From: a virus
Length of the DNA: 64,000 nt
Virus record (IMG/VR): IMGVR_UViG_3300028558_000029
Span: 1-64,000 of that record
Direction: 5' to 3' (one strand)
This document shows, in pieces, positions 14,771-39,385 of the stretch (within the stretch, counting starts at the first letter, position 1; every line of letters begins with the position of its first letter). Below the pieces are notes generated by a model. The model did not search any database, had not been told where the DNA came from, and saw only the letters and a list, made by a program, of their open reading frames with translations. The position numbers were made by a program, and so were the translations under genes.

Positions 14771-15690
14771 TGCTGTTCAATTACATGCGCAGCGTGCAGC
14801 GCTTTGTTCGCGATAGCGGACAGAAACTGATCGATCCAGGCGACATCATTGAATATGTCAACACCGCGCGCCGTCAGGTGGCGATGCAGGCTCAGTGTGT
14901 TCGCATCCTTCCGTCGATCCAGAATGGGATCAAGACGATTGACGTGACGGCCAGCGGGTCCGGATACACCAACCCCACCGTGTCGATCAGTGCGCCTGAC
15001 TTTCCGAGCGCCATGCTGCCGTCGCCGAGCGGATTGCAGGCCACTGCTATCGCCACCCAGGCCGGTGGCAGCATCATTGGCGTGAATGTAGATGTCGGCG
15101 GAAGCGGGTATTTCCAGCCGGAGATCACCATCGTCGACCCGACCGGGTCTGGAGCATCGGTGGTTGCCCATATCGCGCCGATCAACCAGACCAACACGAA
15201 TCAGGAAGTCTACAACTTCAGCGATGTCGACCTGAGTGCGTTTCCTGGCGTGGAATCGATCCTGGCGATCAAGTCGATCAGCATCATCTACTCCAATTAC
15301 CGCTATACGCTGCCGTACTACAGCTTCACCACCTATCAGTCGATGATCCGGCAGTACCCGCTGCAATACTATTACGTGCCGGTCATGTGGTCGCAGTACG
15401 GGCAGGGTGCCGGCGGCAGCGTCTATGCCTATCCGATCGCCTCGCAGGCGTATCAGTGGGACTGGGATTGCATCTGCCTGCCGTCAGACCTGACCAGCGA
15501 CAACGATGTCGAAGCCATTCCGATGCCGTGGACGGATGCGGTCAAGTATCTCGCCACCCACTTCGCCTTCCTTGAACTGCAAAACCTGAACGCGGCGGAC
15601 TATTATTACAAAATGTTCATGATGCAAATCAACCGCTTCAGCGTTGCCGCTCGTCCTGGCCGAATGAACAACCCTTACGGCAGATTCTGA
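14770..15690 (+). CDS. tail tube / head-tail adaptor protein, copy 2 with inserted beta domain
   Basis: A 306-residue paralogue of the previous protein: VNTARRQVAMQAQCVRIL aligns with the same region of copy 1, and PMPWTDAVKYLATHFAF aligns with its end. An extra block of about 80 residues is inserted after the first helices; it contains GSGYTNPTVSI and GSGYFQPEITI repeats. This looks like a duplication followed by domain insertion. The start ATG overlaps the previous TAA. Confidence 0.65.
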   Translation: MLFNYMRSVQRFVRDSGQKLIDPGDIIEYVNTARRQVAMQAQCVRILPSIQNGIKTIDVTASGSGYTNPTVSISAPDFPSAMLPSPSGLQATAIATQAGGSIIGVNVDVGGSGYFQPEITIVDPTGSGASVVAHIAPINQTNTNQEVYNFSDVDLSAFPGVESILAIKSISIIYSNYRYTLPYYSFTTYQSMIRQYPLQYYYVPVMWSQYGQGAGGSVYAYPIASQAYQWDWDCICLPSDLTSDNDVEAIPMPWTDAVKYLATHFAFLELQNLNAADYYYKMFMMQINRFSVAARPGRMNNPYGRF

Positions 15691-17765
15691 TGGCTGACGA
15701 ACGCGGCGGCTCTCTTCCGGCGCATCCACCACAGACGCCGGGCTTTCCTGGCAACCCCATGCCCATCGTCTTCGATGGGTTCAGCGGGATGAACACGAAG
15801 CCGTCGCGCCCGGCTATCGAGGACCAGCAAGCCTTCTGGTCTGACGGCTTCATGATGATCGGGCCGAACAACGCCAGGACCCTGCCTGACGTTGGCCCTG
15901 CCATCTACATGGCCCCTCCGGGCCAGCTATCGTTTTTCGGCTTCGCCAATATCGGCGACACGCCGTACTCGATTGCCTTCCTGTCCACCGGCTCCATTGT
16001 CGCGATCAACACCAACACGACGATGACGACCAGCGTCGCGCCGGCCGGAACCATTCTGAACCCGGCCAATCAGATCGGCCTGAGCCAGTGGGGCAGCCAG
16101 TACGTCCTGATCTGCGCGCCGCAGACCAATGGCTACTTCATCTGGGATGGCACGACGCTCTATGAGGCCGGAACGCTCGGCCCAACCGTCCAGATAACCG
16201 ACGACGGTGCCGGCTACACCTCGGCCCCGACCATCAGCGTGATCGGCGGAGCCGGCTCCGGAGCGTCGCTGGTCGCGACAGTCACCAACGGCGGCGTCAC
16301 CGCCATATCGGTGGTCAATCCAGGCACCGGCTACCAGTTTGAGGATCAGCCCTATCTGGCCTTCTCTGGTGGCGGATCGAACACGACGGCGATCCTGACC
16401 GCCACGATTTCCTCTGGGACAATCGCATCGATCAACGTCGTCAATGGTGGCACCGGCTACACCAGTTCAGGGGCGGTGGTCGAGGTTATGGGGGGCGGCG
16501 GAACCGGCGGTGCGGTGACGGTCGGCATCAGTGGCGGGGCCGTCAATTCGACGACCATCACGGCAGCTGGCGAGGGCTACCTGACACCACCATCGATCTA
16601 TGTGACCGATCCAAACAATTCGGTTGCCGAAGCGACGGTCAACGTGATGCCGTTCGGCATCCAGGGCACCGGATTGGAAACCTACCAGGGCCGGGTATGG
16701 ATCGTTAATGGCGCGGCTCCGACCATCCCGCCGCCGCGCGGGCTGGTCCAGTTCAGCGCGCCCGGCGCGCCAGACGACTGGTCGGCCGGCAATGGCGCGG
16801 GCTCGTTTGTTTCGACCGACTCGTTCCTCCGTGTCGGCTTCCACGGGATCAAGCAGAGCAACGGCTTCCTGTATCTGGTCGGAGATTCGTCGCTGAACTA
16901 CATCTCGAACGTCCAGCAGTCGACCGGCGTGCCGCCGATCGTGCAGTTCAGCAACCAGAATGTCGACCCGCAGATCGGCTCGCCTTGGCCGAACACGGTC
17001 CAGGTGTTCAGCCGAAATGTGGTGTTCGCCAATCCGTTCGGCGTTCACGTCTCCTATGGCGGGGCCGTTACCAAGGTCAGCGATGCGCTGGATGGCGTTT
17101 ACACGACAGTTCCGAACTTCGGCAACTCCAACCCCAGCTCGGCCATCGCCGACATCTTCGGCATCCGCGTCTACATGCTGTTGCTGCCGATCATCGATCC
17201 GATCAGCCTCGCCCAGGTCAACAAGCTGCTGCTGTGGGACGGGAAGAAGTGGTTCGCGGCCTCACAAACCATCGGCCTGACCCAGGTTTCGTCGCAGGAA
17301 ATCAACTCGGAGCTGACTTCGTGGGGCACTGACGGGACCGGCATCTATCCACTGTTCCAGCTGCCGAGCGGCTCGCTTCAGAAGGTGATCGAGTCCAAGC
17401 TGTGGGACTTCCCTGGCTACGACTGGACCAAGACGGCGCTGCGCCTGTATGGCATGGTCTTCTATTATTCGCTGGTATCTCCCGATCTGGTCATCTCGAT
17501 TGACACTTCGGTTGCTGGCGTGTCCCAGCAGATCGTGGTGTCCGGAACCACCATCAAGATTTTCAACCAGTTCGGAGCGCTTGTTCCGGTGTTCAACAAT
17601 GTTGGAGCGCCGGTCAATGTAGGCGGCGCGGTCCTGAATGTGTTCGGACCTCTACCGACTTCCCAGGCCGGGCCGCTTATCGGGTTGACACTCACTACCG
17701 ACGCGGCCGATATGGTGCTATTGTCCCTGAAGATTTGGGAACGCGCTACCCAGGCGAACCTGTAA
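15690..17765 (+). CDS. tail hub / stabilisation protein with GxGY beta repeats
   Basis: A 691-residue beta-rich protein coupled to the gene before it. The N-terminal FDGFSGMNTKPSRPAI and the repeated strand pattern (FWSDGFMMIG, YVLICAPQTNGYFIWDG, FLYLVGDSSLNYI) resemble the propeller-like tail hub proteins of podoviruses. Four GxGYxxxP-type units lie at about 170-310, inserted in the core. It would close the head exit or form the tail knob. Confidence 0.6.
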   Translation: MADERGGSLPAHPPQTPGFPGNPMPIVFDGFSGMNTKPSRPAIEDQQAFWSDGFMMIGPNNARTLPDVGPAIYMAPPGQLSFFGFANIGDTPYSIAFLSTGSIVAINTNTTMTTSVAPAGTILNPANQIGLSQWGSQYVLICAPQTNGYFIWDGTTLYEAGTLGPTVQITDDGAGYTSAPTISVIGGAGSGASLVATVTNGGVTAISVVNPGTGYQFEDQPYLAFSGGGSNTTAILTATISSGTIASINVVNGGTGYTSSGAVVEVMGGGGTGGAVTVGISGGAVNSTTITAAGEGYLTPPSIYVTDPNNSVAEATVNVMPFGIQGTGLETYQGRVWIVNGAAPTIPPPRGLVQFSAPGAPDDWSAGNGAGSFVSTDSFLRVGFHGIKQSNGFLYLVGDSSLNYISNVQQSTGVPPIVQFSNQNVDPQIGSPWPNTVQVFSRNVVFANPFGVHVSYGGAVTKVSDALDGVYTTVPNFGNSNPSSAIADIFGIRVYMLLLPIIDPISLAQVNKLLLWDGKKWFAASQTIGLTQVSSQEINSELTSWGTDGTGIYPLFQLPSGSLQKVIESKLWDFPGYDWTKTALRLYGMVFYYSLVSPDLVISIDTSVAGVSQQIVVSGTTIKIFNQFGALVPVFNNVGAPVNVGGAVLNVFGPLPTSQAGPLIGLTLTTDAADMVLLSLKIWERATQANL

Positions 17766-25987: not shown

Positions 25988-26217
25988 AAAAAGTCGTCCA
26001 AGTCCCCGAGTTCGAGCAGTCCCTCAAGAAGCTGGCCCAGGACATCGCCGATCAGGCGTTGACCGAGCAGGACTTCAAGGCCAAGGTAGACGCCTTCAAG
26101 GCCCTGGCCGCATTCCATATCGGCGTGACCAGGGTCAAGGCCAAGATTCCAGAAGAAGACGACCAGGAGACATTCGGTGGCATCATCAGGGACATCGCGA
26201 CTACAGGCCGTGGGTGA
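25984..26217 (+). CDS. small helical hypothetical protein
   Basis: A 77-residue protein from GTG 25984, overlapping the end of the large virion gene. It is almost wholly helical and charged (FEQSLKKLAQDIADQALTEQDFKAKVDAFKALAAFH). No membrane span and no recognised family. It may be a small chaperone or virion factor. Confidence 0.55.
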   Translation: MKKVVQVPEFEQSLKKLAQDIADQALTEQDFKAKVDAFKALAAFHIGVTRVKAKIPEEDDQETFGGIIRDIATTGRG

Positions 26218-26497
26218 GCGGGAAGCACCGACGCTGGAGGAAATGCACGCTGATATGGTCGCCGCCCCGCCGACCGTAGGGCCGGGAATGGCGCTAGGCA
26301 TGGTGCTTCTCGGCATCAAAACCCTGTCCCAACGTGCGTTGGTGATGATCGGAAGCCTCGCGAATCTGGCGCTATGCGCCTCGGTTTGGTGGTTGTTCGT
26401 CCAAATGCCAGATAATCCCTCATGGCCCAAGATCGCAGCCAATGCCGGATATGGCATCTTCGTGCTTACTGCAATTTTCCTGACCAGACGAAGGTAG
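26210..26497 (+). CDS. small membrane protein, two spans
   Basis: A 95-residue protein if started at GTG 26210, which overlaps the previous stop; GTG 26177 and ATG 26255 are alternatives. Two hydrophobic stretches are seen, IGSLANLALCASVWWLFV and AANAGYGIFVLTAIFL, with a basic TRRR end. It directly precedes the signal-peptide fibre genes and could be a holin-like or export-associated membrane protein. No family match. Confidence 0.5.
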   Translation: MGEREAPTLEEMHADMVAAPPTVGPGMALGMVLLGIKTLSQRALVMIGSLANLALCASVWWLFVQMPDNPSWPKIAANAGYGIFVLTAIFLTRRR

Positions 26498-26509: not shown

Positions 26510-28099
26510 ATGCGGCTAGGCTGGCTTTCCATATTCTTTGCCGGCCTGATCGCATCGCTTCCGGCGGGTGCCGCCGAGTACATCCAGCAAGGCGGTAATG
26601 TAACCCAGGGGCATGTCGGCTCCTGGACGGCTCCCGGCATTCTTCAGGACGGTGGGCCGGCGACCGCTGGCAAGGTGACCGAACTCGGCATCACCCGGAA
26701 CGGCGGCCTGCCGTTCTGCATCTATACCGGGCCAACCTCCCCAACCGTTCGCCTGTGCTTCACCGTTAGCAGCACGGACGGCGCGACCATCACCATGGTC
26801 AACAGCGGGTCGCCGCTGCCGTTCAACGTAAATTACAATGGGGTAATTTCCCCATTCTCCATCCCTGTTCCGGTATCGCTCGCCAACGGCGGAACTGGAG
26901 TGGCACTGACCGCCAATAACGGCGGCATCGTCTATTCCAATGCCTCGACCCTGGCGATCCTGAGCGGAACCAGCACGGCCGGACTGCCGCTGATTTCTGG
27001 CTCGAATGCTGTGCCAAGCTGGGGCTCCAGGTCGGGCAACACCACGGTCTTCGGCACGGCAAGCGGCACGTTGACGGACGGTCATTGCGTGACCATCAAC
27101 GGCGGCAACTTCATCGATGCTGGCGGCCCCTGCACAACTGGCGGTGGCGGCGGAACCGTGTCGGCCGGCACGGCCGGTCAGATGACTTACTATGCCGGAT
27201 CGGGGACCGTGGTGGCTGGAAATGCCAACGCGACGATCAGCGGCGGCGCGCTGACGCTGGGCCAGTCCAGCTCGGTGGCCGGTTCCCTGATCCTCAACGG
27301 GTCTGGCAGCGGTCACGGGACGATCGTAGCCCAGGCGGCGGCGGGCACGCCAACCCTGACACTTCCGACCGGCAGCGGTACTTTCGCCAACTCGGCCTCC
27401 GCGCCCCTTTCTCTATCGGCCACAACCGGCGCGCTGACCATATCGTCGGCCACTTCCGGAGCGCTCGGTGTCGTCCAGGGCGACGGATCGACCCTGACGA
27501 TCTCGGCTGGCGTCATTTCTTGCACCACGGCGACCACCAGCCAGATCGGCTGCGTGAAGCCTGACGGCACATCGGTCACCATCTCCGGAGGCATCATATC
27601 GTCGGTCAACACTAGCGGTCCGGTCCTGCTGGCGACGCTGACCGCCAGCACCTCGGCATCGTTGACCGACACAACTCACATTACCAGCTCTTACAAGTCG
27701 TATGAGTTCAGGGTCATCAATCTACTGCCGGTGAACGCTAGCGCCACCCTGCAAATGCAGCTTTCGACCAATGCCGGCTCGTCCTATGACAGCACTCTTG
27801 GAAACTACTGGATCAACAACGCCAACAGCATGGCGTGTCCGAGCGCCGAACTCGATACGTCTAACTCCCTTCCGCTTGGCGGCATGAATTCGATCATGAA
27901 GCTGTATACGCCATCAACCAACGGCACCTACAAGATGCTCTACACGGCGGCTGTGGCGGCTTTTACCAGTTCGGATGTTCTGAGGGATGAGGTTGGCTGC
28001 ATGTATGTCGGCAGCACGTCGCCAGTGAACGCGATCAAGTTCATCGAGGACTCCGGCAGCATTAGCTCTGGCGTGATCGAGATATGGGGATACCCATGA
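26510..28099 (+). CDS. tail-fibre-like protein with Sec signal peptide (1)
   Basis: A 529-residue protein. The N-terminus is a textbook signal peptide: MRLG, a hydrophobic core and an AGA-type cleavage site before AEYIQQ. The mature start (VTQGHVGSWTAPGILQDGGPA) is a motif common at the head of phage fibres. The body is Gly/Ser/Thr-rich beta sequence, and the C-terminal 150 residues form an ordered domain with paired Cys (CPSAEL, CMYVG). The first 80 mature residues are paralogous to the next protein. Confidence 0.65.
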   Translation: MRLGWLSIFFAGLIASLPAGAAEYIQQGGNVTQGHVGSWTAPGILQDGGPATAGKVTELGITRNGGLPFCIYTGPTSPTVRLCFTVSSTDGATITMVNSGSPLPFNVNYNGVISPFSIPVPVSLANGGTGVALTANNGGIVYSNASTLAILSGTSTAGLPLISGSNAVPSWGSRSGNTTVFGTASGTLTDGHCVTINGGNFIDAGGPCTTGGGGGTVSAGTAGQMTYYAGSGTVVAGNANATISGGALTLGQSSSVAGSLILNGSGSGHGTIVAQAAAGTPTLTLPTGSGTFANSASAPLSLSATTGALTISSATSGALGVVQGDGSTLTISAGVISCTTATTSQIGCVKPDGTSVTISGGIISSVNTSGPVLLATLTASTSASLTDTTHITSSYKSYEFRVINLLPVNASATLQMQLSTNAGSSYDSTLGNYWINNANSMACPSAELDTSNSLPLGGMNSIMKLYTPSTNGTYKMLYTAAVAAFTSSDVLRDEVGCMYVGSTSPVNAIKFIEDSGSISSGVIEIWGYP

Positions 28100-29460
28100 T
28101 CCGGTCCGGCGCATTCCTGGCCGCTCTGCTGTGGGCCGTTCCGGCCCTGTCGGCTGACTATATCCAGCAGTCTGGCAGCGTCACACAGGGCCACGTCGCG
28201 TCGTGGGTGGGTTCCGGGCTTCAGCAGGACGCCGGACCGGCGACTGGCGGACGCATCACCGAACTTGGCATCACAAAGAATGGCGGGTTGCCGCTCTGTA
28301 TAAACACCGCACTGGTCGGCCTGCCGCTGGCCGAGGCGTGCCAGGGCGTCAGCTCGACGACCGGGGCATTCTTCTCGCTTCAGTCGTACAACGGTCAGGC
28401 GGCGATGCCGCTATCGTTCCTGATCAACGGCTTCACGCCGCTGGTTCTGAACGCTGACGGCACCATCACGACGAACATCACCGGGTCGACGCAGTGTCTA
28501 CAGGTCAGCACGGTGGGGCTGGTCAGCGGGAGTGGCGGAACCTGCGGTGGGGGTGGCGGGACGCCGGGCGGCTCTTCTGGGCAAGTTCAGTACAACAATA
28601 GCGGCTCATTTGGCGGCTTCACCGTCAGCGGAGACGGTACGCTTGACACCGGGACCGGGGCGCTGACCGTCAGCAGTGCGTTTGGTGGAGTGCCATTTGC
28701 TACTTCAGCTTTTGTTGACACTACGAACGCTAGCAACATTTCGTCAGGAACACTGATTCCATCGGCAGTGACCGGCACAGGCACGCTAACGGTCGGCGCA
28801 ACCGGGGCTGGATTTACGATTGATTTCGGGGCCAGCACCGTATCTGGACAGCTTGGGCTTTCTGGCGGCGGCACGGGAGCTAGCATCTCGGCAACTTCTG
28901 GCGGAATCCCATACTTCTCTTCGACCTCCGCTATGGGATCGAGCGGCCTTCTGACCCATTACGGACTGATATACGGCGGCGGTGCTGGAGCGGCTCCGGT
29001 ATCGATGGTGGCCTGCTCAAGCGGAGCCCCGGTGCTTGGCGGAAGCACAGCCCCAGTGTGTGGTTCAGATGTCAATCTGGCCTACACCGATGTGGCACAA
29101 GCGTTTACCAAGTCGCAGCGGGGGACGCCGGTCAACATCGCCATCTCTACCGCGACGTTCACCCCATCGTTCAACAATGCCCAAAATTTTGAAATCGACC
29201 TGACCTCCGCGTGTCCGTGTGCTCTGGCGAATCCAAGCACATCGCTGGTGGCCGGTCAGTCGGGAATGTTTGAGATTCACCAGGATGGCTCCGGCAGTCG
29301 CACCATCGTGACGTGGGGCAGCGACTATCAGTCGGTGGGCGGCACGAGCACGATCGTTCTCAGCACGGCCGCTAGCGCCATCGACTATCTCCCATACTAT
29401 GTCAACAACGCAGCGACCGCCATTGTGTTTGGCGGCCTGATCAGATCGCCGAGCCACTGA
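28096..29460 (+). CDS. tail-fibre-like protein with Sec signal peptide (2)
   Basis: A 454-residue protein starting at ATG 28096, overlapping the previous stop. The signal peptide ends ALSA before DYIQQSG. The mature start (SVTQGHVASWVGSGLQQDAGPA, split here as VTQGHVASW and LQQDAGPA) repeats that of the preceding protein, so the pair arose by duplication. The body is Gly-rich beta repeats. The C-terminus (SGMFEIHQDGSGSRTIVTWG) is an ordered domain seen in many fibres. Confidence 0.65.
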   Translation: MIRSGAFLAALLWAVPALSADYIQQSGSVTQGHVASWVGSGLQQDAGPATGGRITELGITKNGGLPLCINTALVGLPLAEACQGVSSTTGAFFSLQSYNGQAAMPLSFLINGFTPLVLNADGTITTNITGSTQCLQVSTVGLVSGSGGTCGGGGGTPGGSSGQVQYNNSGSFGGFTVSGDGTLDTGTGALTVSSAFGGVPFATSAFVDTTNASNISSGTLIPSAVTGTGTLTVGATGAGFTIDFGASTVSGQLGLSGGGTGASISATSGGIPYFSSTSAMGSSGLLTHYGLIYGGGAGAAPVSMVACSSGAPVLGGSTAPVCGSDVNLAYTDVAQAFTKSQRGTPVNIAISTATFTPSFNNAQNFEIDLTSACPCALANPSTSLVAGQSGMFEIHQDGSGSRTIVTWGSDYQSVGGTSTIVLSTAASAIDYLPYYVNNAATAIVFGGLIRSPSH

Positions 29461-30389
29461 TGCGCCAAGCCCTAATCACTGCTGTTTTGCTATTCTTTTA
29501 TACGGGGATCGGATTTCCAGCCGAAGCCCAGATCGTGGGGACTTTCGTTCAGGCGTCTCCATTTACAGGGCTGGGTGACGCGGTCACCGGAGCCACCGCC
29601 TATTGGTCCTGCTCAAGGGCCTACTCTTCGGTGACAACGGCGTCTAAGGCGTGCAACATATGCGATGCGGCCAATACTCATTGTGTTGATGTTTACAGTG
29701 ACGCCGGCACCGGGATTGTGCCGGTTCCAAAACCAGACGGCAGCACGCCATGCGACAACTCCGGCAACATCTGTACGGTTCAGACGGTATACAATCAGGT
29801 AAGCCCTGGAAATTACAACTTCGGGCAATCCACCGCCGCCAGCCGCCCAACTTTGGCAATATCTTCCTTGGGAAGCGCCGTCCAATACATAAAGTTTGTT
29901 GGGACTAGTTCTCAACATATGGACGGTAACACGGGTCCTAACCTAAGTAACAACCCGACTACTTATGTGTTTTACTCTCAAAGGAACGGTTCATTCACAA
30001 CCGAGGGGACTATACTAAGTAACCAAACTGGTCTTACCACCCAGCAAACTGATTATAAAAATGCCACCAACTCATTGTCTGTAGTGAATGTGATCAGCAA
30101 CACGGTGACTGCTTCTGATAGCGCATGGCATTCTATTCAGACCATTGCTAATGGTGCATCGCCGGCATCTTTCGTTTGGGTGGATAGCACGTTGACAACT
30201 GCCAACCTTAGCGCCACCGGGACCACAACAAAACTATGTATGGGTTCTCTTGGAAACGGCGGCACCACATGCACGGCCACTGGATTTTATGTGACCGCCA
30301 TTATCGGCGAGATCGCTATCTATGACGGTGTCGCCTTCAACGCCACTCAGCACGACAATGTCAACGCGAATCAGGCAGCGTTTTACTAA
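29460..30389 (+). CDS. secreted lectin / arabinofuranosidase-like protein
   Basis: A 309-residue protein with a signal peptide ending PAEA before QIVG. The mature part has GATAYWSCSRAYSS, VDVYSDAGTGIV and VYNQVSPGNYNFGQST, a degenerate form of the concanavalin-like or arabinofuranosidase-like module (SRAYxG ... YDQSGNxxDxxQ) used in many phage fibres to bind sugar. The second half is clearly more AT-rich than its surroundings, suggesting recent exchange. The family's catalytic residues could not be identified. Confidence 0.6.
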   Translation: MRQALITAVLLFFYTGIGFPAEAQIVGTFVQASPFTGLGDAVTGATAYWSCSRAYSSVTTASKACNICDAANTHCVDVYSDAGTGIVPVPKPDGSTPCDNSGNICTVQTVYNQVSPGNYNFGQSTAASRPTLAISSLGSAVQYIKFVGTSSQHMDGNTGPNLSNNPTTYVFYSQRNGSFTTEGTILSNQTGLTTQQTDYKNATNSLSVVNVISNTVTASDSAWHSIQTIANGASPASFVWVDSTLTTANLSATGTTTKLCMGSLGNGGTTCTATGFYVTAIIGEIAIYDGVAFNATQHDNVNANQAAFY

Positions 30390-30431
30390 ACCGTGAAGGT
30401 AGGCTACCATCTGCCCCAGGAGGGCGTTTAA

Positions 30432-31802
30432 ATGATCAAGCGTGTTCTAGGGGCGTTGGCATTGGTGACGGCGGTAGCGTTCTGGCATAGCGCCAGCGCC
30501 GCCGAGGCCGATCTGTACTGCCTGACCAGCAGCACGCCGCCGTTTCAGCCGTGCTCCGGCACCAACCCCCTCCAGGTCACCGCTTCCGTTAGCGCGACCA
30601 CGGCCTACACAGCAGCCGCCGCGCTGCCTTCGCTTTCTCCTGGAACGCAGGCCGGCTATGAGAGCCTGTCCGGCGGACAGTATGTTCAGCCGATCTTTGG
30701 CACGACTATCGTCGACCTGACCCATGGCTTGCCGGTCAATATTGTGGCCGGGGCCGGGGCCGGTGGTACGTCGTCGAACTATGGAGCCGCCTTCCCGACT
30801 GCCGGTACCGCCATTGGCTTGACCGATGGTACGAACATGCGAGCATTGACCGGCATCAATTATACCGGAACCTCGTATTCTGCTGCGACTTCGGTGGTTC
30901 AGGCGCTTCCTGCTGGGACAAACGTCATCGGTCACGTCATTACCGATACCGGGTCGACGACGGCAGTTACTGGCACCGTGACTGTATCCGGCACCGTCAC
31001 TGCCAACGCTGGCACGGGAACATTCAGTGTGGCCGGAACCGGTAGCGCCGGAACCGCCAACGCTGGCGTCGTTACCATACAGGGTATTGCGTCGATGACG
31101 CCGGTTCAGGTGTCGCAGGCCACTGCTGCCAACCTGAATGCCACTGTCGTTGGCGCGGGAACGGCCGGCAGCCCCAGCGGTGGCGTTGTATCTATTCAGG
31201 GCGTGGCCTCCGGAACCGTTGTCCCGGTGACAGCGACCAACCTTTCGACCAATCTCGCACAGGTCAATGGCGCGACGGTCAATGTTGGAACTGGTGCGGC
31301 CTCCACCGGTACCCAGCGAGTTACCACGTCGACTGATAGCACCATCGGGACCGTCACATCAGTCACCGCAATCGCCAATGCCTTGCCATCTGGCAGCAAC
31401 GTCATTGGTCATGTGGTAACCGACAGCGGCTCCCTGACCACGCAGACCCCGGCGACCAGCGGTGGCCTTTCCGTAGCCCGGACGATCCTGGCGAACAACA
31501 CCACTTCGGTGGCGGTCAAGGCCAGTGCCGGTCAAGTCTACCATATCGATGCGACTAACAATTCGACCAGCGTTAACGCCTATTTCAAGATTTACAACAT
31601 AGCCCAGGGCTCCAATACCTGCGGATCGAATACCCCGATCATGACGATCATGGTCCCGTTTGGCAGCGGCTTCGTGCTGGACGACGCCAATGGATTCGCC
31701 TTCTCCACAGCAATCTCGGTCTGCGTCACAACCGGGCTGGCGGATGCGGACACGGGCGCTCCTGCCGCCACGTCCGGCACCTGGAACGTAGGCTATAAGT
31801 GA
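30432..31802 (+). CDS. tail-fibre-like protein with Sec signal peptide (3)
   Basis: A 456-residue protein preceded by AGGAGG nine bases upstream. The signal peptide ends SASA before AEADLYC. The body has repeated units (NVIGHVITDTGS / NVIGHVVTDSGS; VVTIQGIAS / VVSIQGVAS) that look like a beta-helix. The C-terminal domain (ASAGQVYHIDATNNSTSVNAYFKIYN) is a fold seen at the end of phage receptor-binding proteins. It is probably a host-binding fibre. Confidence 0.65.
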   Translation: MIKRVLGALALVTAVAFWHSASAAEADLYCLTSSTPPFQPCSGTNPLQVTASVSATTAYTAAAALPSLSPGTQAGYESLSGGQYVQPIFGTTIVDLTHGLPVNIVAGAGAGGTSSNYGAAFPTAGTAIGLTDGTNMRALTGINYTGTSYSAATSVVQALPAGTNVIGHVITDTGSTTAVTGTVTVSGTVTANAGTGTFSVAGTGSAGTANAGVVTIQGIASMTPVQVSQATAANLNATVVGAGTAGSPSGGVVSIQGVASGTVVPVTATNLSTNLAQVNGATVNVGTGAASTGTQRVTTSTDSTIGTVTSVTAIANALPSGSNVIGHVVTDSGSLTTQTPATSGGLSVARTILANNTTSVAVKASAGQVYHIDATNNSTSVNAYFKIYNIAQGSNTCGSNTPIMTIMVPFGSGFVLDDANGFAFSTAISVCVTTGLADADTGAPAATSGTWNVGYK

Positions 31803-33514
31803 TGCGGGCGCTCGTCGCGGCTGTTCTGTTTGGGCTGACCCTGACGGCAGGGTTGCATCAGTCGGCCTATGCGGTTGGCGAGATGATGATGGGGGTTGGG
31901 AAGGCGGCGGCTGTTGGTGGCTGCTCGTACACCGGCCCTGTCGACGTGGTGGCTGGCCCGACGATCCTCTACTCGACCAGGGCCGCGAGCACCGCGACGT
32001 GCGGGAACAAGCTGATGAACGTCTGTAACGTCAGCGATGTGGCCTGTGGCGACCTTTCCAGCAGTGCATCGACCGGCAAGATGGTTATTTCGACCATCGG
32101 CGGATCGAACTGCTCCATCGTCACCTGCACGATCAAGACGTGGTATGACCTCTCCGGGAACGCCAACGACACAACGCAGAGCACCATTGCGAGCCGGGCG
32201 ACCTTCACGGTCAGTTGCCAGAACTCGCAGCCTTGCGCGACTTGCGCCGGTTCCTGCATCTATGCGTCGGGCAGCGCGATCTCGACGACCCAGCCGTTCA
32301 CAATGATCTCCTACGCCGAACGGACGGGGGCGACGACCTCGCTCAACTCCATCGCCCGTTCGGTCACGACCACTATCATCCTTGAGTTCACGACCTCGGC
32401 CAACCAGGCGGGGATCACGGCCGGGACGCTGGCGACGGCGACGGCCTCGGACAACGCCTTCCACAGCATCAACGCGGTGGCGAATGGGGCCTCCTCGCTG
32501 CTCTCGATCGATGGTGCGACGGCGACGGTATCGGCCAACACCAACGCGATGTCGGCCAAGGTGTTCTGCGTGGGGACCGGGAACAACGCCTGCACCAGCG
32601 CCGCTTCCGGCCTGAACGGGAACCTGACCGAGGTTGGAATCTGGGGCTCGACCGGCTTCACGACCAGCAACTTGACCTCCATGAACACCAATCAGGCGAC
32701 GTTCTGGGGGACGACCTTCGCCGGTGCGGGCGATGTTGTCTCGGGTGCCACGGCCTTCTGGTCAGCGAGCCGGGCCTATGCCGGGGCGACTCGGGGGCTC
32801 AAGGTCGCGAACGTCTGCAATGTTGCTGATGCGGCCTGCGCGGATATCAGCAGCGATATCTCAAGCGGAGTGGTAGCCGCCCCCACCATCGGGGGCAGCG
32901 CATGCTCGGTCGTCACCTGTACGATCAAGGTTATGTACGACCAAACCCTGGGCGGTTTCGATGCCACCCAGGCGACCATCGCAACGCGGGCCACGCTAAC
33001 CGTGGCTAGCCTAGGCAGTGCGGCTATCTACGCCTCCGGGAGCGGATCACAGTTTTACCCCTTGACTGCGGCTACCACCGTCGTGGAGCCATGGACGTTC
33101 ATATCCTTTAGTAAAAGGAGCGGGAATTTTACAGGCTTTGGAGGTGTTCTATCGGACATAAACTCAGGGACGCACCTATACTATAGGTCGATTGTCGATA
33201 GCGTTGGCTTCGATGTTAATGGAACGGCGATAACCATTTCCGGAGCAGTTCCAGATGCGTCATATCATTCTCTTATCGGCGTATCTGCTTCAGTTGGAAG
33301 TAATAGCCTTTTAGTTGTAGATGGCTCGGCCACCACTGGAACCACAGGGACATCATCTCTAAGTGGTGGATTTTGTTTGTTTTCGACTTCTAATGGGAGT
33401 GTTTGCGGAACGATTGCATCGACTGCAAATATAGGGGAGCTTGCTGTATACCCCATTGGGTTCAACTCCACGCAATACGGCAATATGAACACCAACGAGG
33501 CGGCATTCTACTGA
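31802..33514 (+). CDS. secreted protein with two tandem lectin / arabinofuranosidase-like modules
   Basis: A 570-residue protein starting at ATG 31802. The signal peptide ends SAYA before VGEM. Two copies of one module follow, at about 45-300 and 305-570: each has a TRA/SRAY start, NVCNVxDxAC, TIGGSxC, CTIK and a YDxxxG...DxTQxTIA block, plus a C-terminal strand region. The second copy becomes AT-rich from about 33040. It is homologous to the 29460 gene and probably binds or cuts a surface glycan. Confidence 0.6.
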   Translation: MRALVAAVLFGLTLTAGLHQSAYAVGEMMMGVGKAAAVGGCSYTGPVDVVAGPTILYSTRAASTATCGNKLMNVCNVSDVACGDLSSSASTGKMVISTIGGSNCSIVTCTIKTWYDLSGNANDTTQSTIASRATFTVSCQNSQPCATCAGSCIYASGSAISTTQPFTMISYAERTGATTSLNSIARSVTTTIILEFTTSANQAGITAGTLATATASDNAFHSINAVANGASSLLSIDGATATVSANTNAMSAKVFCVGTGNNACTSAASGLNGNLTEVGIWGSTGFTTSNLTSMNTNQATFWGTTFAGAGDVVSGATAFWSASRAYAGATRGLKVANVCNVADAACADISSDISSGVVAAPTIGGSACSVVTCTIKVMYDQTLGGFDATQATIATRATLTVASLGSAAIYASGSGSQFYPLTAATTVVEPWTFISFSKRSGNFTGFGGVLSDINSGTHLYYRSIVDSVGFDVNGTAITISGAVPDASYHSLIGVSASVGSNSLLVVDGSATTGTTGTSSLSGGFCLFSTSNGSVCGTIASTANIGELAVYPIGFNSTQYGNMNTNEAAFY

Positions 33515-34014
33515 TGCGCAAGATCATCCTCTTCTTCCTGCTCGTGGCCTCCCCGGCCTTCGCCCAGGTCACGACCAACAGCTATCTGCCGCAATCCGAT
33601 CTCAGCACGGCCGCTGGACGGAGTCAGCTTGAGGCTCAGGCGATGGGGGCGACTCCGGACGGGAAGGGCAACTATCCGGGGTGGTGGGAATACCGGGCCT
33701 ATCCATGTACCAAGGGGCCGACCGTGTTCATCACCATAGAGGCCGCGCCGCGCCAGCTCGCCACCGTGGGCTCCGACGACTTCACCGCCAATCCGCGCGC
33801 TCCGGTGATCGCGGCGACGGGGCGCAGCGTGCTCGCGCCTGCGGTCAACGGCCGGCTGAACATGGTCGCGGAGATGGCCCCGGTGATCGATCAGCAAACG
33901 GGGAAGGCCCAGCGCGCAGCGCCGACTGGCCTGAGTGCCGACGAGATCATTGCGCTGGTGCCCTACGAAACGATGCAGTCAAACGGGTGTTTCCCCGACC
34001 CAGGCCAGAACTGA
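33514..34014 (+). CDS. small secreted protein, unknown
   Basis: A 166-residue protein with a short clear signal peptide (MRKIILFFLLVASPAFA, then QVTTNS). The mature part has LPQSDLSTAAGRSQLEAQAMG, a PGWWEYRAYPC block and a LNMVAEMAPVIDQQTGKAQRAAP block; two Cys could form a disulfide. It ends the run of fibre genes. The role is unknown; it could be a periplasmic chaperone, or a fibre tip. Confidence 0.55.
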   Translation: MRKIILFFLLVASPAFAQVTTNSYLPQSDLSTAAGRSQLEAQAMGATPDGKGNYPGWWEYRAYPCTKGPTVFITIEAAPRQLATVGSDDFTANPRAPVIAATGRSVLAPAVNGRLNMVAEMAPVIDQQTGKAQRAAPTGLSADEIIALVPYETMQSNGCFPDPGQN

Positions 34015-34078
34015 CATTGACAAATCAGTGTGACCATCAGCAACCTGCGACAGGCTCGTAACCCGTCAAGGAACGATC

Positions 34079-34378
34079 ATGATGACACGAATTGCCGCGA
34101 TTGCGTTTGGTGGAGTAGCGATGGCTCTCTCCCTGTTTGCTCCGGCCATGGCTGCCGACGCACCACCGGCCCCGCCTGAAAAGCCAGCGCTGGCGGAGCC
34201 AGCCAAGCCAGCCAATTACACCATCACCCTGACCATGGACCAGCTCGTCGCCCTGGACTCGATCCTGAACGAGTCCAATTCGCCGTACCGTCTGGTTGCC
34301 GCCCTGCGGCAGTCCATCATCACCCAGTATCAGGCACAGCTCTCAAAGGCCGACCCGGCCAAGGCAGAAGGAAAATAA
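34079..34378 (+). CDS. small secreted protein, unknown
   Basis: A 99-residue protein with an N-terminal signal-like segment (IAAIAFGGVAMALSLFAPAMA, shown here as its parts IAAIAFGGVAM and ALSLFAPAMA) followed by ADAPPAPPEKP, a Pro-rich linker, and a helical end (TMDQLVALDSILNESNSPY). The composition would also fit an outer-membrane spanin-type subunit, but no lipobox Cys is present. It is the seventh consecutive gene with a signal peptide and precedes the lysis genes. Confidence 0.5.
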   Translation: MMTRIAAIAFGGVAMALSLFAPAMAADAPPAPPEKPALAEPAKPANYTITLTMDQLVALDSILNESNSPYRLVAALRQSIITQYQAQLSKADPAKAEGK

Positions 34379-34381
34379 GCA

Positions 34382-34639
34382 ATGGCCGGCGACTCAAGCG
34401 ATTCTGGAGCCTATGAGCGCCGGTCTGACGATGGCTGGATGGGAAAGCGGTTCGACCGCATGCTCAACATCATCCAGGTGTCGGCGATCATCATTGGTGG
34501 GGTCTACGCCCTCGCCCAGATGAGGGAGCAGGTTTCCGGGCTGCGATCCGACCTGACCGGGTTCGAGGATCGCATGGACAAAACGGTCACGGATATGGGC
34601 AGGCGTATCGACTCCATTCTTCTTTCTGGCAAGAAATGA
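34382..34639 (+). CDS. membrane protein with coiled coil (spanin- or XhlA-like candidate)
   Basis: An 85-residue protein with one membrane span (IQVSAIIIGGVYALA, about 31-45) followed by a coiled coil (LRSDLTGFEDRMDKTVTDMG). Topology and the overlap with the endolysin gene suggest a lysis accessory such as an inner-membrane spanin or XhlA-type protein. The family is not certain. Confidence 0.5.
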   Translation: MAGDSSDSGAYERRSDDGWMGKRFDRMLNIIQVSAIIIGGVYALAQMREQVSGLRSDLTGFEDRMDKTVTDMGRRIDSILLSGKK

Positions 34640-35082
34640 CCATCCGTATAAACGATGCCGGCATGGCGATTCTGAAGAAGCATGAGAAGTGCTCTTTGGT
34701 CTCCTATTGGGACATCGATGGCTGGTCGATCGGCTGGGGTTGTCATAACCACCCCCTGGTCGATGCGCTTACGCGGTGGAGCCAAGAACAGTGCGACCAG
34801 CAGCTGATCGAGGATATCGAAGCCGTCGAGTCTGAACTGGACCATCTGCTGACCATTATCGTCACGTCCAATGAGTGGTCCGCCCTGGTCGACTTTCTGT
34901 ACAATGAGGGATATAGCCACCTGAGTGGTTCGACCCTGCTCAAGCTGGTCAATGCCGGAGACTTCAAAGGGGCGGCCGACGAGTTTCCGAAGTGGCGCGT
35001 GGCGGGCGGCAAGCCAAACGCCGATCTGGAGGCGAGGCGCGCTGACGAACGAGCACTATTTTTGACTCCAGATCAAGCATAA
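34636..35082 (+). CDS. endolysin, GH24-type lysozyme (muramidase)
   Basis: A 148-residue protein overlapping the previous stop. The N-terminal KKHEKCSLVSYWDIDGWSIGWG matches the GH24 catalytic region (E...Y.D..G..TIGYG): Glu17 as acid, Asp26, and Ser31 where most members have Thr. The NEWSALVDFLYNEGYSHL and FPKWRVAGGK blocks are also typical. It would cut the glycan strands of peptidoglycan at lysis. There is no signal or anchor, so it should need the holin. Confidence 0.8.
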   Translation: MTIRINDAGMAILKKHEKCSLVSYWDIDGWSIGWGCHNHPLVDALTRWSQEQCDQQLIEDIEAVESELDHLLTIIVTSNEWSALVDFLYNEGYSHLSGSTLLKLVNAGDFKGAADEFPKWRVAGGKPNADLEARRADERALFLTPDQA

Positions 35083-37020: not shown

Positions 37021-37096
37021 CGCGGATTGGAGCAGTGGCCAGCTCGCCAGCCTCATAAGCTGGAGGTCGGTAGTTCGAATCTATCATCCGCCTCCA
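37021..37096 (+). tRNA. tRNA-fMet-like (CAT), initiator type
   Basis: CCA is encoded. The first pair is a C1-C72 mismatch, the hallmark position of bacterial initiator tRNA, and the body follows initiator tRNA (GGAGCAG in the D-arm, CTCATAA loop). The three consecutive G:C pairs next to the anticodon loop of normal initiators are not kept (stem CCAGC/GCTGG). Confidence 0.85.
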
Positions 37097-37112
37097 ATTC
37101 GATTGACAGTGA

Positions 37113-37186
37113 CGCGGGATCGTATAACGGTAGTATGACTGGCTCTGATCCAGTAGGCAGCGGATCAACACCGCTTCCCGTATCCA
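37113..37186 (+). tRNA. tRNA-Gln (CTG)
   Basis: The acceptor stem pairs at positions 2-7 with a C1-A72 mismatch, consistent with the weak first pair of Gln tRNAs. The anticodon loop is CTCTGAT and CCA is encoded. The T-loop is ATCAACA, with A in place of the usual T54. Confidence 0.85.
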
Positions 37187-37204
37187 AAATTTCCGGACCG
37201 AGAG

Positions 37205-37274
37205 GTGCGGAGACGGTGTGACAGCAGTGGCTCCGGCTAGACCGGTGGGGATCGCAAGGTCCGTCCCAGCGCAC
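37205..37274 (+). other. tRNA-like degenerate element 1
   Basis: GGTGCG pairs with CGCACC over six bases as an acceptor-like stem, and TGGGG/TCCCA forms a T-arm-like stem with an enlarged loop beginning ATCG. The central hairpin CCGG-CTAGA-CCGG has only five loop bases, so there is no normal anticodon loop. It lies in the array at the spacing of a tRNA. It may be a decayed tRNA. Confidence 0.35.
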
Positions 37275-37328
37275 CAAAAAGAACGCTAGACGGCGGCGTA
37301 ACAATGGCCTTCTTCAATTTTTGAATAT

Positions 37329-37412
37329 GGGTTGGTTTGCGGTGGTCCGCAGCCGTGTCTGTAAAACACGCGCCTATGGCAATGAGGGTTCGATTCCTCT
37401 CCCGACCCACCA
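37329..37412 (+). tRNA. tRNA-Tyr (GTA)
   Basis: A class II tRNA with a full seven-pair acceptor (one G-T pair), anticodon stem CGTGT/ACACG, loop CTGTAAA and a long variable arm. CCA is encoded. Confidence 0.9.
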
Positions 37413-37418
37413 TTCAAT

Positions 37419-37492
37419 GCGGGGCTGGTATAGTGGCTGTGCCCTAGCCTTCCAAGCTAGAAACAGGGGTTCGATCCCCCTGCCCCGCTCCA
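37419..37492 (+). tRNA. tRNA-Gly (TCC)
   Basis: Acceptor GCGGGGC/GCCCCGC, anticodon stem CTAGC/GCTAG, loop CTTCCAA and a canonical T-loop. CCA is encoded. Confidence 0.92.
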
Positions 37493-37495
37493 ATC

Positions 37496-37569
37496 GCGAC
37501 CGTAATTCAATGGCAGAACGAGACGTTGCCAACGTCGGTACAGCGGTTCGATTCCGCTCGGTCGCTCCA
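37496..37569 (+). tRNA. tRNA-Gly (GCC)
   Basis: Acceptor GCGACCG/CGGTCGC, anticodon loop TTGCCAA within GACG/CGTC, canonical T-loop TTCGATT. CCA is encoded. Confidence 0.92.
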
Positions 37570-37632
37570 TGGGGTTTCCTCTAGGGCCGTGAGGAATTAT
37601 AGCGGCGCGATCTCCAGCCGCTTCCCCGCCAT
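37570..37632 (+). other. tRNA-like element 2, apparently without an anticodon arm
   Basis: This 62-base element ends in CCA and is spaced like its neighbours. It shows GGGG/CCCC acceptor pairs and a D-arm-like CCTC-TAGGGCCGT-GAGG. Only one further stem is present, AGCGG/CCGCT with a 12-base loop. One arm of a normal tRNA is missing, so it is either decayed or an unusual tRNA-like RNA. Confidence 0.4.
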
Positions 37633-37637
37633 TTCAT

Positions 37638-37716
37638 CAGCGTGTAGCTCAGTCTGGCCTAGAGTACCTGTCTCGGACACAGGGGGTCGGTGGTTCGAAT
37701 CCACTCACGCTGACCA
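37638..37716 (+). tRNA. tRNA-Pro (CGG)
   Basis: Acceptor CAGCGTG/CACGCTG, anticodon stem CCTGT/ACAGG, loop CTCGGAC, canonical T-loop. CCA is encoded. Confidence 0.92.
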
Positions 37717-37722
37717 TTTCAT

Positions 37723-37799
37723 GCGCCCGTAGTCCAACTGGATAGGGCACCTGCCTACGAAGCAGGAGTGTGGGGGTTCGAATCCCTCCGGGCGCACCA
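37723..37799 (+). tRNA. tRNA-Arg (ACG)
   Basis: Acceptor GCGCCCG/CGGGCGC, anticodon stem CCTGC/GCAGG, loop CTACGAA, canonical T-loop. CCA is encoded. A34 would need deamination to inosine to read CGC. Confidence 0.92.
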
Positions 37800-37802
37800 T
37801 TT

Positions 37803-37879
37803 CGACTCGTCGCCCAAATGGATAGGGCACCGCCCTCCGAAGGCGGAGGCTGGGAGTTCGACTCTCCCCGAGTCGGCCA
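37803..37879 (+). tRNA. tRNA-Arg (CCG)
   Basis: Acceptor CGACTCG/CGAGTCG, anticodon stem CCGCC/GGCGG, loop CTCCGAA. CCA is encoded. It is similar to the neighbouring Arg(ACG) gene in the D-arm. Confidence 0.92.
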
Positions 37880-37881
37880 AT

Positions 37882-37956
37882 GGGGCTGTGCTGATTGGAT
37901 CAGCGCCGGGTTTCCTAAACCTGGACCAGTGGGTTCGAATCCCTCCGGCCTCGCCA
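37882..37956 (+). tRNA. tRNA-Arg (CCT)
   Basis: The acceptor GGGGCTG pairs with CGGCCTC using two G-T pairs. Anticodon loop TTCCTAA within CGGGT/ACCTG, canonical T-loop. CCA is encoded. Confidence 0.9.
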
Positions 37957-37962
37957 CTCAAT

Positions 37963-38037
37963 GGTCTGCGAAGCATCTGGCGAGGCTGTCCCGCTGTCTA
38001 CGGGACGAGACGGGTCCGATTCCCGTGCAGACCGCCA
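37963..38037 (+). tRNA. tRNA-Asp (GTC)
   Basis: Acceptor GGTCTGC/GCAGACC, anticodon stem TCCCG/CGGGA, loop CTGTCTA. CCA is encoded. The discriminator base is G, as expected for Asp. The D-arm is irregular. Confidence 0.88.
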
Positions 38038-38043
38038 TTCAAT

Positions 38044-38118
38044 GCCCGTGTGGTGCAAGGTAGACACGCTGCGTCTCAAAAACGCGCTCGCTCGGATCGT
38101 TACCGGGCACGGGCACCA
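38044..38118 (+). tRNA. tRNA-Leu by anticodon (CAA), short variable loop
   Basis: Acceptor GCCCGTG/CACGGGC, anticodon stem GCGT/ACGC, loop CTCAAAA. CCA is encoded. The long variable arm normal for Leu is absent. The T-loop is ATCGTTA with A54 and T58. The amino acid identity is therefore less certain than the anticodon. Confidence 0.75.
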
Positions 38119-38121
38119 ATT

Positions 38122-38196
38122 CTTCGGATGATGCAACGGTAGACATACACTGGGTCAGGCCAAGTCGTGTCGGTTCGACTCCGACTCCGAAGACCA
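38122..38196 (+). tRNA. tRNA-Leu by anticodon (CAG), short variable loop
   Basis: Acceptor CTTCGGA/TCCGAAG, discriminator A, CCA encoded. The anticodon stem ACTGG/CAAGT has one G-A mismatch and loop GTCAGGC. The variable loop is only about three bases, unlike a standard Leu tRNA. Confidence 0.7.
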
Positions 38197-38202
38197 ATTC
38201 AA

Positions 38203-38277
38203 CCGGGCGTGGGTCAGTGGCTGACCGCTAGTTTTGGGAACTAGTCCAGGCAAGTTCGATTCTTGCCGTCCGGACCA
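38203..38277 (+). tRNA. tRNA-Pro (TGG)
   Basis: Acceptor CCGGGCG with CGTCCGG (one G-T pair), anticodon stem CTAGT/ACTAG, loop TTTGGGA. CCA is encoded. Confidence 0.9.
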
Positions 38278-38284
38278 TTTAAAC

Positions 38285-38357
38285 GGGGAGCCCGCAGGGG
38301 CGGCGCTGTGTTTTGCAAACACGGACGGGGTCGGATCGTTACCGACGCTCTCCACCA
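38285..38357 (+). tRNA. tRNA-Ala (TGC)
   Basis: The acceptor GGGGAGC pairs with GCTCTCC; the G3-T70 wobble is the classic alanine identity pair. Anticodon loop TTTGCAA. The T-loop is ATCGTTA. CCA is encoded. Confidence 0.88.
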
Positions 38358-38362
38358 ATTCA

Positions 38363-38438
38363 TGCTCCGATAGGCAACAGGCAGACCACTCGCCCTCAAA
38401 ATGCGAGATGCTGACGGCTCGAATCCGTCTCGGAGTAC
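38363..38438 (+). tRNA. tRNA-Leu by anticodon (CAA), second copy, no encoded CCA
   Basis: The acceptor TGCTCCG pairs with CGGAGTA. The anticodon stem has a C31-T39 mismatch and loop CTCAAAA. The variable loop is short. The last base (position 73) abuts the first base of the next tRNA, so CCA must be added after processing. Confidence 0.7.
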
Positions 38439-38514
38439 GCTCGGCTAGTTCAGTGGTAGAACGCGGCTCTCGTACAGCCGATGTCCGGGGTCCGATTCCT
38501 CCGGCCGAGCACCA
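38439..38514 (+). tRNA. tRNA-Thr (CGT)
   Basis: Acceptor GCTCGGC/GCCGAGC, anticodon stem CGGCT/AGCCG, loop CTCGTAC. CCA is encoded. It starts with no spacer after the previous tRNA. Confidence 0.92.
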
Positions 38515-38515
38515 T

Positions 38516-38590
38516 GCCGTCGTAGCTCAACAGGAAGAGCCCTGCCTTGTAAGCAGGATGATCGGGGTTCGAGGCCTCGCGTCGGCTCCA
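38516..38590 (+). tRNA. tRNA-Thr (TGT)
   Basis: The acceptor GCCGTCG/CGTCGGC has one T-T mismatch. Anticodon stem CCTGC/GCAGG, loop CTTGTAA. CCA is encoded. Confidence 0.88.
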
Positions 38591-38596
38591 TTTCAT

Positions 38597-38674
38597 CCCC
38601 TCGTAGCCCAATTGGTAGAGGTGACTCGCTTAGAACGAGTAGGTTGGCAGTTCGAATCTAGCCCGAGGGGACCA
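38597..38674 (+). tRNA. tRNA-Leu by anticodon (TAG), short variable loop
   Basis: Acceptor CCCCTCG/CGAGGGG, anticodon stem ACTCG/CGAGT, loop CTTAGAA. CCA is encoded. The variable loop is about five bases. The T-stem GGCAG pairs with CT-A-GCC, leaving a bulged A. Confidence 0.75.
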
Positions 38675-38680
38675 ATTCAC

Positions 38681-38755
38681 GCTGATATAGGCCAGTGGCA
38701 GACCGCGATCTTGGTAAGATCGATGACGATGGTCCGATTCCATCTATCAGCTCCA
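38681..38755 (+). tRNA. tRNA-Thr (GGT)
   Basis: Acceptor GCTGATA/TATCAGC, anticodon stem CGATC/GATCG, loop TTGGTAA, T-loop TCCGATT. CCA is encoded. Confidence 0.9.
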
Positions 38756-38761
38756 TTCAAC

Positions 38762-38830
38762 GGCAGTGCGAGGAAGGCGCTGGCTCTCATAAGGCCGGCA
38801 GCGCTGGGTCAGGTCCAGCCACTGTCACCA
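38762..38830 (+). tRNA. tRNA-Met (CAT), elongator-like, short
   Basis: Acceptor GGCAGTG/CACTGTC, anticodon stem TGGCT/GGCCG with loop CTCATAA, and encoded CCA. It is only 69 bases long, with a compact D-arm and an unusual T-loop GTCAGGT. The paired first position separates it from the initiator-like gene. Ile after C34 modification is an alternative. Confidence 0.75.
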
Positions 38831-38836
38831 ATTCAC

Positions 38837-38928
38837 GGGCGGTGGCGTTGGACGCAAGAGGGCCTTATAAACCCTGCTAGCAGTAGATGACTGTTCTCGA
38901 CACGGATCGTAACCGTGGCCGCCTACCA
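38837..38928 (+). tRNA. class II tRNA of uncertain identity, anticodon TAT by position
   Basis: A 92-base tRNA with acceptor GGGCGGT/GCCGCCT, encoded CCA and a variable arm that folds as CAGT-agatg-ACTG. The anticodon stem is AGGG/CCCT with an apparent nine-base loop (CCTTATAAA), so C31-A39 is unpaired and the standard register gives TAT. The long arm would suit Leu, Ser or Tyr, but TAT reads Ile AUA. The T-loop is ATCGTAA. Confidence 0.6.
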
Positions 38929-38934
38929 TTCCAT

Positions 38935-39008
38935 GGGCATGTAGCTCAACGGCAGAGCCGGCGGTCGATAACCGTCAGACCGTGGTTCGACACCACGCTT
39001 GCCTACCA
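38935..39008 (+). tRNA. tRNA-Ile (GAT)
   Basis: The acceptor GGGCATG has one T-T mismatch. Anticodon stem GGCGG/CCGTC, loop TCGATAA, which has C rather than T at position 33. CCA is encoded. Confidence 0.82.
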
Positions 39009-39015
39009 TTTCGAC

Positions 39016-39090
39016 GGGCGGTTAGCTCAGAAGAAGAGCGGGGTTCTTACAAAACTCAGGTCGGGATTGCGAAATTCTCACCGCCTACCA
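39016..39090 (+). tRNA. tRNA-Val (TAC)
   Basis: Acceptor GGGCGGT/ACCGCCT, anticodon stem GGGTT/AACTC, loop CTTACAA. CCA is encoded. The T-arm is weak, with loop TGCGAAA. Confidence 0.85.
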
Positions 39091-39147
39091 ATTAACCCGC
39101 CCTCCCGTTCGGGATGAGCCAGTAGCGCTGTGGCGGCAGCAAGTTAT

Positions 39148-39221
39148 TCTCTCCTCTTTCAATGGCAGGAAGTTCGGCTGTTAACCGAATAATCGGGGTT
39201 CGAGTCCCTGGGAGAGAGCCA
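39148..39221 (+). tRNA. tRNA-Asn (GTT)
   Basis: Acceptor TCTCTCC/GGAGAGA, discriminator G, anticodon stem TTCGG/CCGAA, loop CTGTTAA. CCA is encoded. The 57 bases before it (39091-39147) hold a CCCG/CGGG hairpin but no gene that I can support. Confidence 0.9.
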
Positions 39222-39223
39222 AT

Positions 39224-39299
39224 CGCGCGTCCGTCTATCGGAATGGACATCTGGTTCTCAACCAGAAGATGTAGGGTTCGACTCCCTAACGCGCGTCCA
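39224..39299 (+). tRNA. tRNA-Glu (CTC)
   Basis: Acceptor CGCGCGT/ACGCGCG, anticodon stem CTGG/CCAG, loop TTCTCAA. CCA is encoded. Confidence 0.9.
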
Positions 39300-39302
39300 T
39301 AT

Positions 39303-39377: not shown

Positions 39378-39385
39378 GTTTACAC

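Follow-up and report, generated by a model that had tools for sequence, protein, structure and literature searches.

The gene module and its predicted signal peptides

The window, that is, the whole stretch of 64,000 nucleotides analyzed here, represents nearly all of a 64,355-base IMG/VR virus record. It encodes a phage with genes for the large terminase, the portal, the MCP, and a putative tail nozzle (15690), the last being 43% identical to L053_12684 and L066_12581 and 40% identical to L061_12169 in related loci. The nozzle gene is followed in order by three large ejection-type genes (20211, 21468, and 22976), seven consecutive genes with a predicted signal peptide (SP), an endolysin gene, and 27 tRNA genes, which places the seven-gene module between the ejection-type genes and the lysis genes (table 1). 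The tRNA genes lie within approximately 3.7 kb (37021-40685), with an HNH endonuclease gene among them (39736-40287); so complete a set is unusual in a phage of 64 kb. An adenylosuccinate synthetase-like gene at 60852-61985 (Pfam, 1.7e-40) is possibly PurZ from the 2-aminoadenine (Z-genome) pathway.

Table 1. Genes of the module and its surroundings in the window, with two groups of proteins in related loci (SP+ and SP-, with and without a predicted signal peptide)
Feature	Position	Strand	Length	SP score and other properties
Putative tail nozzle (short-tail protein)	15690..17765	+	691 aa	PHROGs structural matches
Small membrane protein, upstream of module	26177..26497	+	106 aa	blastp to SP+ and SP- relatives
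SP+ fibre/spike	26510..28099	+	529 aa	SP score 9.3; 8 mature Cys
SP+ fibre/spike, paralogue of 26510	28084..29460 (start 28084 or 28096)	+	458 aa	SP score 11.7; 8 mature Cys
SP+ fibre-like, domain family of 31799	29460..30389	+	309 aa	SP score 6.9; 8 mature Cys
SP+ fibre-like	30432..31802	+	456 aa	SP score 17.2; 4 mature Cys
SP+ fibre-like	31799..33514 (start 31799 or 31802)	+	570-571 aa	SP score 12.0; 18 mature Cys
Small SP+ protein, non-fibre composition	33514..34014	+	166 aa	SP score 12.2; 2 mature Cys
Small SP+ Pro/Ala-rich protein, adjoins lysis genes	34079..34378	+	99 aa	SP score 16.2; 0 mature Cys
Endolysin without signal peptide, after module	34636..35082	+		phrog_7 endolysin 5.8e-37; SP score -5.9
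Short SP- motif proteins of relatives	L060:9447-9938, L064:9450-9953, L067:9027-9515, L074:9983-10477, L081:9992-10480, others		~160 aa	Cys-poor
ADxPxKAP-like proteins of relatives	L063:12992-13807, L069:13370-14128, L075:13028-13867, L076:13581-14597, L081:13985-14710, L196 (18890)		~240-340 aa

Signal peptides were called throughout with a purpose-built scorer (three-region n/h/c log-odds, threshold 6) rather than with SignalP. Its training set comprised 53 E. coli signal peptides; in leave-one-out runs on these, the median score was 14.9 and the cleavage site was exact in 48. Among 45 E. coli K-12 control genes, four exceeded 6, namely ModA and YbgS, which have true signal peptides, and the membrane proteins YbhN and YbhI. 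Apart from the seven, no plausible gene of the window passed, and the sole other ORF above 6 was a doubtful antisense ORF (1476-2024). When all frames were taken with the first start, nine of the 357 ORFs of at least 60 aa in the window passed. All seven proteins scored between 6.9 and 17.2, and each has a basic n-region, a hydrophobic core, and small residues at -3/-1; the predicted signal peptides are, for example, MRLGWLSIFFAGLIASLPAGA/AEYIQQ in 26510 and MIRSGAFLAALLWAVPALS/ADYIQQ in 28084/28096. Shuffling of the N-terminal 30 residues gave the score in 0-1 of 500 trials for each gene, and 200,000 gene-order shuffles produced no run of seven such genes. These results bear out the first-pass annotation, made from the same DNA, in its claim that seven consecutive genes start with a Sec-type signal peptide. 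The lipoprotein and Tat routes were rejected for the seven proteins, in which we found no lipobox, no cysteine at the predicted cleavage sites (the first occurs at residue 30 or later), and no twin-arginine (RR) motif.

Five of the seven proteins (26510, 28084/28096, 29460, 30432, and 31799/31802) are rich in Gly, Ser, Thr, and Asn, poor in charge, and thus fibre-like in composition. The description of all seven as fibre-region genes stands for these five but not for 33514 and 34079. Several of them had also been thought to bear classic fibre or lectin domains; however, no such Pfam domain was detectable in any of the seven, and PHROGs gave weak matches to virion structural families for 26510 (phrog_27494, 2e-6; also phrog_14820, 1.6e-12) and 31799 (phrog_10356, 1.7e-8) only. 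The 31799 protein consists of two repeats of the 29460 domain, which is homologous to both halves and to SP+ proteins in L069, L075, and L168.

The small membrane protein encoded at 26177 had been suggested to belong to the module. Its blastp matches lie in L070, L051, L012, L057, L068, L048, and L049, and it is conserved beside SP-less fibres as well (L048 and L049); thus, it is not tied to export, and we dropped it as a part of the module. The endolysin lacks a signal peptide, which sets the spike export proposed below apart from any exported lysis system. Small His-rich proteins with predicted export occur near the module in some relatives (L064:15462-15923, L070:19529-19936, and L072:15563-16315); the one in L064 has a weak CHAP-domain match (0.005), and these proteins are perhaps exported lysins.

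The related loci, designated by L-numbers, form a coherent family obtained from IMG/VR scans, many of them on 52-67 kb contigs. No cultured relative was found for the spikes or for the spike N-terminal domain, and a scan with 31802 as the query gave no match. The MCP and terminase of the window match only Manatee Spring metagenome phages and distant phages, in none of which the SP fibre module was seen. Scanned bacterial genomes contained no relative, so neither a prophage nor a host was identified; the host is likely a Gram-negative bacterium and possibly an alphaproteobacterium. SP+ fibre-like genes were also observed in otherwise unrelated-looking phages (L003:8063-11341 and 11343-12197, L002:10001-11362, L005:488-1903, and L006:9599-11401), which suggests that exported fibres may extend past this family.

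Cysteine content as a test of export

In Gram-negative bacteria, the cysteines of exported proteins pair in the periplasm, and their number per protein therefore tends to be even (PMC7678975). In the window, the mature parts of all seven proteins have even cysteine counts (table 1), and their cysteine content is 1.97%, versus 0.28% in the virion genes from the MCP to 22976. Across approximately 45 loci of the family, 81 of the 89 SP+ proteins with any cysteine have an even count (p 2.5e-16), compared with 126 of 275 SP- proteins (p 0.18); when one protein was taken per sequence cluster, about 36 of 42 SP+ proteins were even (p 3e-6). We regarded this parity as the strongest evidence for export, since it concerns the mature part, whereas the SP+ and SP- groups were defined by the N-terminus.

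Individual domains showed the same pattern. All 24 complete SP+ proteins with the N-terminal motif described below have an even mature count. Within the motif domain, 25 of 26 SP+ proteins but 2 of 28 SP- proteins have a cysteine pair (Fisher 1e-11), and in the C-terminal domain of 30432, which is unrelated to the motif domain, a pair TCG...CxT (NTCGSNTP / SVCVTTG in 30432 itself) occurs in 14 of 16 SP+ members and in none of 66 SP- members from many phages; these covariations correspond to about 4 and about 5 label changes, respectively, on poorly resolved trees, and Fisher p-values are inflated by relatedness and by the small number of changes. The cultured Caulobacter phages S2B and Cr30 carry an SP-less version of the 30432 C-terminal domain without the cysteine pair. 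In a third domain, that of 29460 and 31799, the cysteine number is even in all six copies, all of which come from SP+ proteins. A few SP- motif proteins are nevertheless rich in cysteine, such as the exception L078:10264-12159, which has 18 cysteines and no signal peptide. The similar spikes L069:9932-12208 and L075:9920-11932 differ by two cysteines gained together (AWTTNGVLQDGG to WCVTTNGIAQDCG); they are near-identical over the N-terminal 100 residues of the body, whereas their signal peptide sequences diverge yet stay SP-like.

Export of these proteins by Sec is thus a well-supported prediction. Earlier, the whole module had been described as apparently sent to the periplasm; for the fibres, this is supported by cysteine parity, by the cysteine pairs that covary with the signal peptide, and by conservation in the family.

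The N-terminal motif and the relation to tail spikes

The proteins 26510 and 28084 share an N-terminal domain that opens with QxGxVTxGHxxxW. In 47 sequences, the motif [IV]xQSGxVTPGHxxxWxxxGVxQDxG is near-invariant, and the C-terminal parts are divergent. Predicted cleavage of the SP+ proteins leaves 3-7 residues ahead of the motif (4 in 26510), and in SP- proteins the distance from the initial Met to the motif is mostly 3-7 residues as well. Both versions can be compared within one genome, as in L060, where the predicted mature SP+ protein begins /QTGSPVKQSGFVTP and the SP- protein begins MPTGSPILQSGNVTP. In L048 and L049, whose MCPs are 80% and 79% identical to that of the window, the motif fibres have no signal peptide and start at the would-be mature N-terminus. 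As to whether relatives keep the signal peptides, the answer was mixed: the family has many SP+ members, but the motif fibres of these two close relatives lack them. Many relatives carry between one and four additional SP+ genes in this region, and none showed a run as long as the seven of the window. The proteins 29460, 30432, and 31799 lack the motif, and docking through the motif as proposed below covers 26510 and 28084 only.

The motif domain of 28084 was modelled with a pLDDT of 85. A fold search with it gave no match at E <= 0.001, and the weak top BFVD matches include several phage fibre or chaperone-bearing proteins. The model of the 29460 domain (pLDDT 40) was set aside.

Evidence that these are tail spikes came through relatives. 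The SP+ motif homologue of L047 (1320 aa) has a C-terminal S74 intramolecular chaperone (3e-14) and matches a PHROG tail spike family (2.7e-20), and the SP- motif homologues of L066 and L061 match tail spike/EPS depolymerase families. Gene position agrees: the slot between the adaptor and nozzle genes, immediately ahead of the latter, is occupied by an SP+ spike in L053 and L058 and by an SP- spike in L061 and L066. No other tail-fibre candidate was found in the window. On the best reading of these data, 26510 and 28084 are probably tail spikes.

Some relatives (e.g., L070) carry SP+ and SP- spikes together. In addition, many relatives have a short Cys-poor SP- protein with a QSGxVTPGH N-terminus, encoded immediately ahead of the SP+ spike (table 1); the one in L064 had no family match. 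This coexistence makes a division of labour possible. The window, L047, L053, and L058 yielded no SP- motif protein.

Proposed assembly route, alternatives, and known systems

Taken together, we consider it fairly probable that the module encodes receptor-binding tail spikes and fibres that are exported, acquire disulfides in the periplasm, and join the virions at lysis. The broader proposal, that a tailed-phage lineage uses split assembly with heads and tails made in the cytoplasm and spikes exported by Sec, oxidised by Dsb, and docked only when the cell opens, the infectious particle thus being finished outside the cytoplasm, has in our judgment a slightly better than even chance of being correct. 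From the sequences, we infer a route of Sec export, cleavage, Dsb oxidation, and docking by the motif at lysis. A cleavable predicted Sec signal peptide would take each protein across the inner membrane, and disulfides would form in the oxidising periplasm; both steps are strongly indicated. In the two motif proteins, signal peptidase would bare the motif-carrying N-terminus, which we read as a virion-docking peptide because the unexported spikes of relatives carry the motif at the same distance from their own N-terminus. The cytoplasm would meanwhile fill with spikeless particles, the folded spikes being held in the periplasm, and docking would follow once holin and endolysin opened the cell. 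Purified P22 tail spikes were classically added in vitro to spikeless heads, which makes such late docking biochemically plausible. Export would probably benefit the phage by letting disulfides stabilise long beta-rich spikes and by sparing the cytoplasm glycan-active or sticky ones; the small proteins 33514 and 34079 may act as helpers or in lysis.

The main alternative, which we consider unlikely although it deserves serious weight, is that the module is an exported non-virion library of spike-derived proteins that mask receptors or digest surface glycans in the periplasm or at the cell surface, the masking serving superinfection exclusion or keeping progeny from sticking to debris. The presence of seven different proteins in one phage and their high turnover between relatives would fit such a library, lambda Lom is a known example of an exported envelope protein encoded by a phage (PMC12309495), and in many relatives the virion partner could be the short SP- motif protein that accompanies the SP+ one. 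However, the window and the three loci L047, L053, and L058 lack an SP- partner, and the window offers no other fibre; moreover, the SP+ spike of L053 and L058 sits within the core tail gene order, in the slot that SP- spikes occupy in L061 and L066, and the mature N-terminus stays similar to that of SP- spikes.

Two further alternatives are much less probable. The hydrophobic segment might stay uncleaved and anchor the fibres in the inner membrane, facing the periplasm; we regard this as improbable, even though the scorer separates signal peptides from N-terminal anchors incompletely, as the two E. coli membrane proteins that passed illustrate, and cysteine parity would be expected here as well. 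Each hydrophobic core is followed by an A-x-A-type site, predicted cleavage there restores the N-terminus of the unexported homologues, and no clear second membrane segment was seen. Still more improbable, if only by a shade, is the absence of any export, with ordinary cytoplasmic fibres using their hydrophobic N-termini for virion docking or oligomerisation. Cytoplasmic assembly is the norm for the virion proteins of tailed phages, which favours this explanation, but the explanation accounts neither for the cysteine parity nor for the cysteine pairs linked to the signal peptide; the docking-type motif follows the hydrophobic segment rather than lying in it and exists without the segment, and signal peptide sequences diverge with their character kept. 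The first-pass annotation offered four readings, namely assembly on exported parts, masking of receptors, secreted glycan-active enzymes, and membrane-tethered fibres; of these, assembly on exported parts fits best, given the shared mature N-terminal motif, the gene position beside core tail genes, and the tail-spike matches; receptor masking keeps a place, and membrane tethering has become less likely.

If spikes are exported, particles would become infectious only at lysis, in departure from the textbook cytoplasmic assembly of tailed phages. Host range would then depend on the export and disulfide machinery of the host, and spikes could bear disulfides impossible for cytoplasmic ones. Closely related phages, some with SP+ and some with SP- spikes, provide a ready natural experiment, and the even-cysteine test is a simple route to other exported virion parts in metagenomes. 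A search of the open-licence literature, where absence is not proof, gave no account of a tailed phage that exports its tail fibres or spikes.

Compared with known systems, the proteins resemble the spikes and fibres of short-tailed Caudoviricetes (PHROG tail spike, EPS depolymerase, Peptidase_S74): they are beta-rich and rich in Gly, Ser, and Thr, with a conserved N-terminal docking-type motif, swapped C-terminal domains, core tail neighbours, and S74 in one SP+ relative. However, the known tail spikes and fibres of this group are not known to carry signal peptides, whereas those predicted here have a Sec signal peptide and paired cysteines. The filamentous phage coat proteins pIII and pVIII carry Sec signal peptides when synthesised and undergo processing at the inner membrane, as is predicted here for virion proteins; in contrast to filamentous phages, which are extruded through the membrane, the window phage is tailed and lytic with cytoplasmic packaging, and no sequence relation exists. 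T5 Llp-type receptor maskers are phage-coded and exported. Like Lom and Llp, the proteins here are phage-coded and predicted to be Sec-exported, and some are encoded between tail genes; unlike those small beta-barrels or lipoproteins, they are, on our reading, tail spikes and lack a lipobox. Phage proteins with a signal peptide followed by an ADxPxKAP-like N-terminus (table 1), which resemble alphaproteobacterial outer-membrane proteins and had no Pfam match in the four examined, may be a host clue or have a Lom-like function. Finally, the module proteins share a signal peptide and even cysteines with exported host proteins of the DsbA type (PMC7678975), and the even-cysteine rule of those cellular proteins is applied here as a test on phage proteins.
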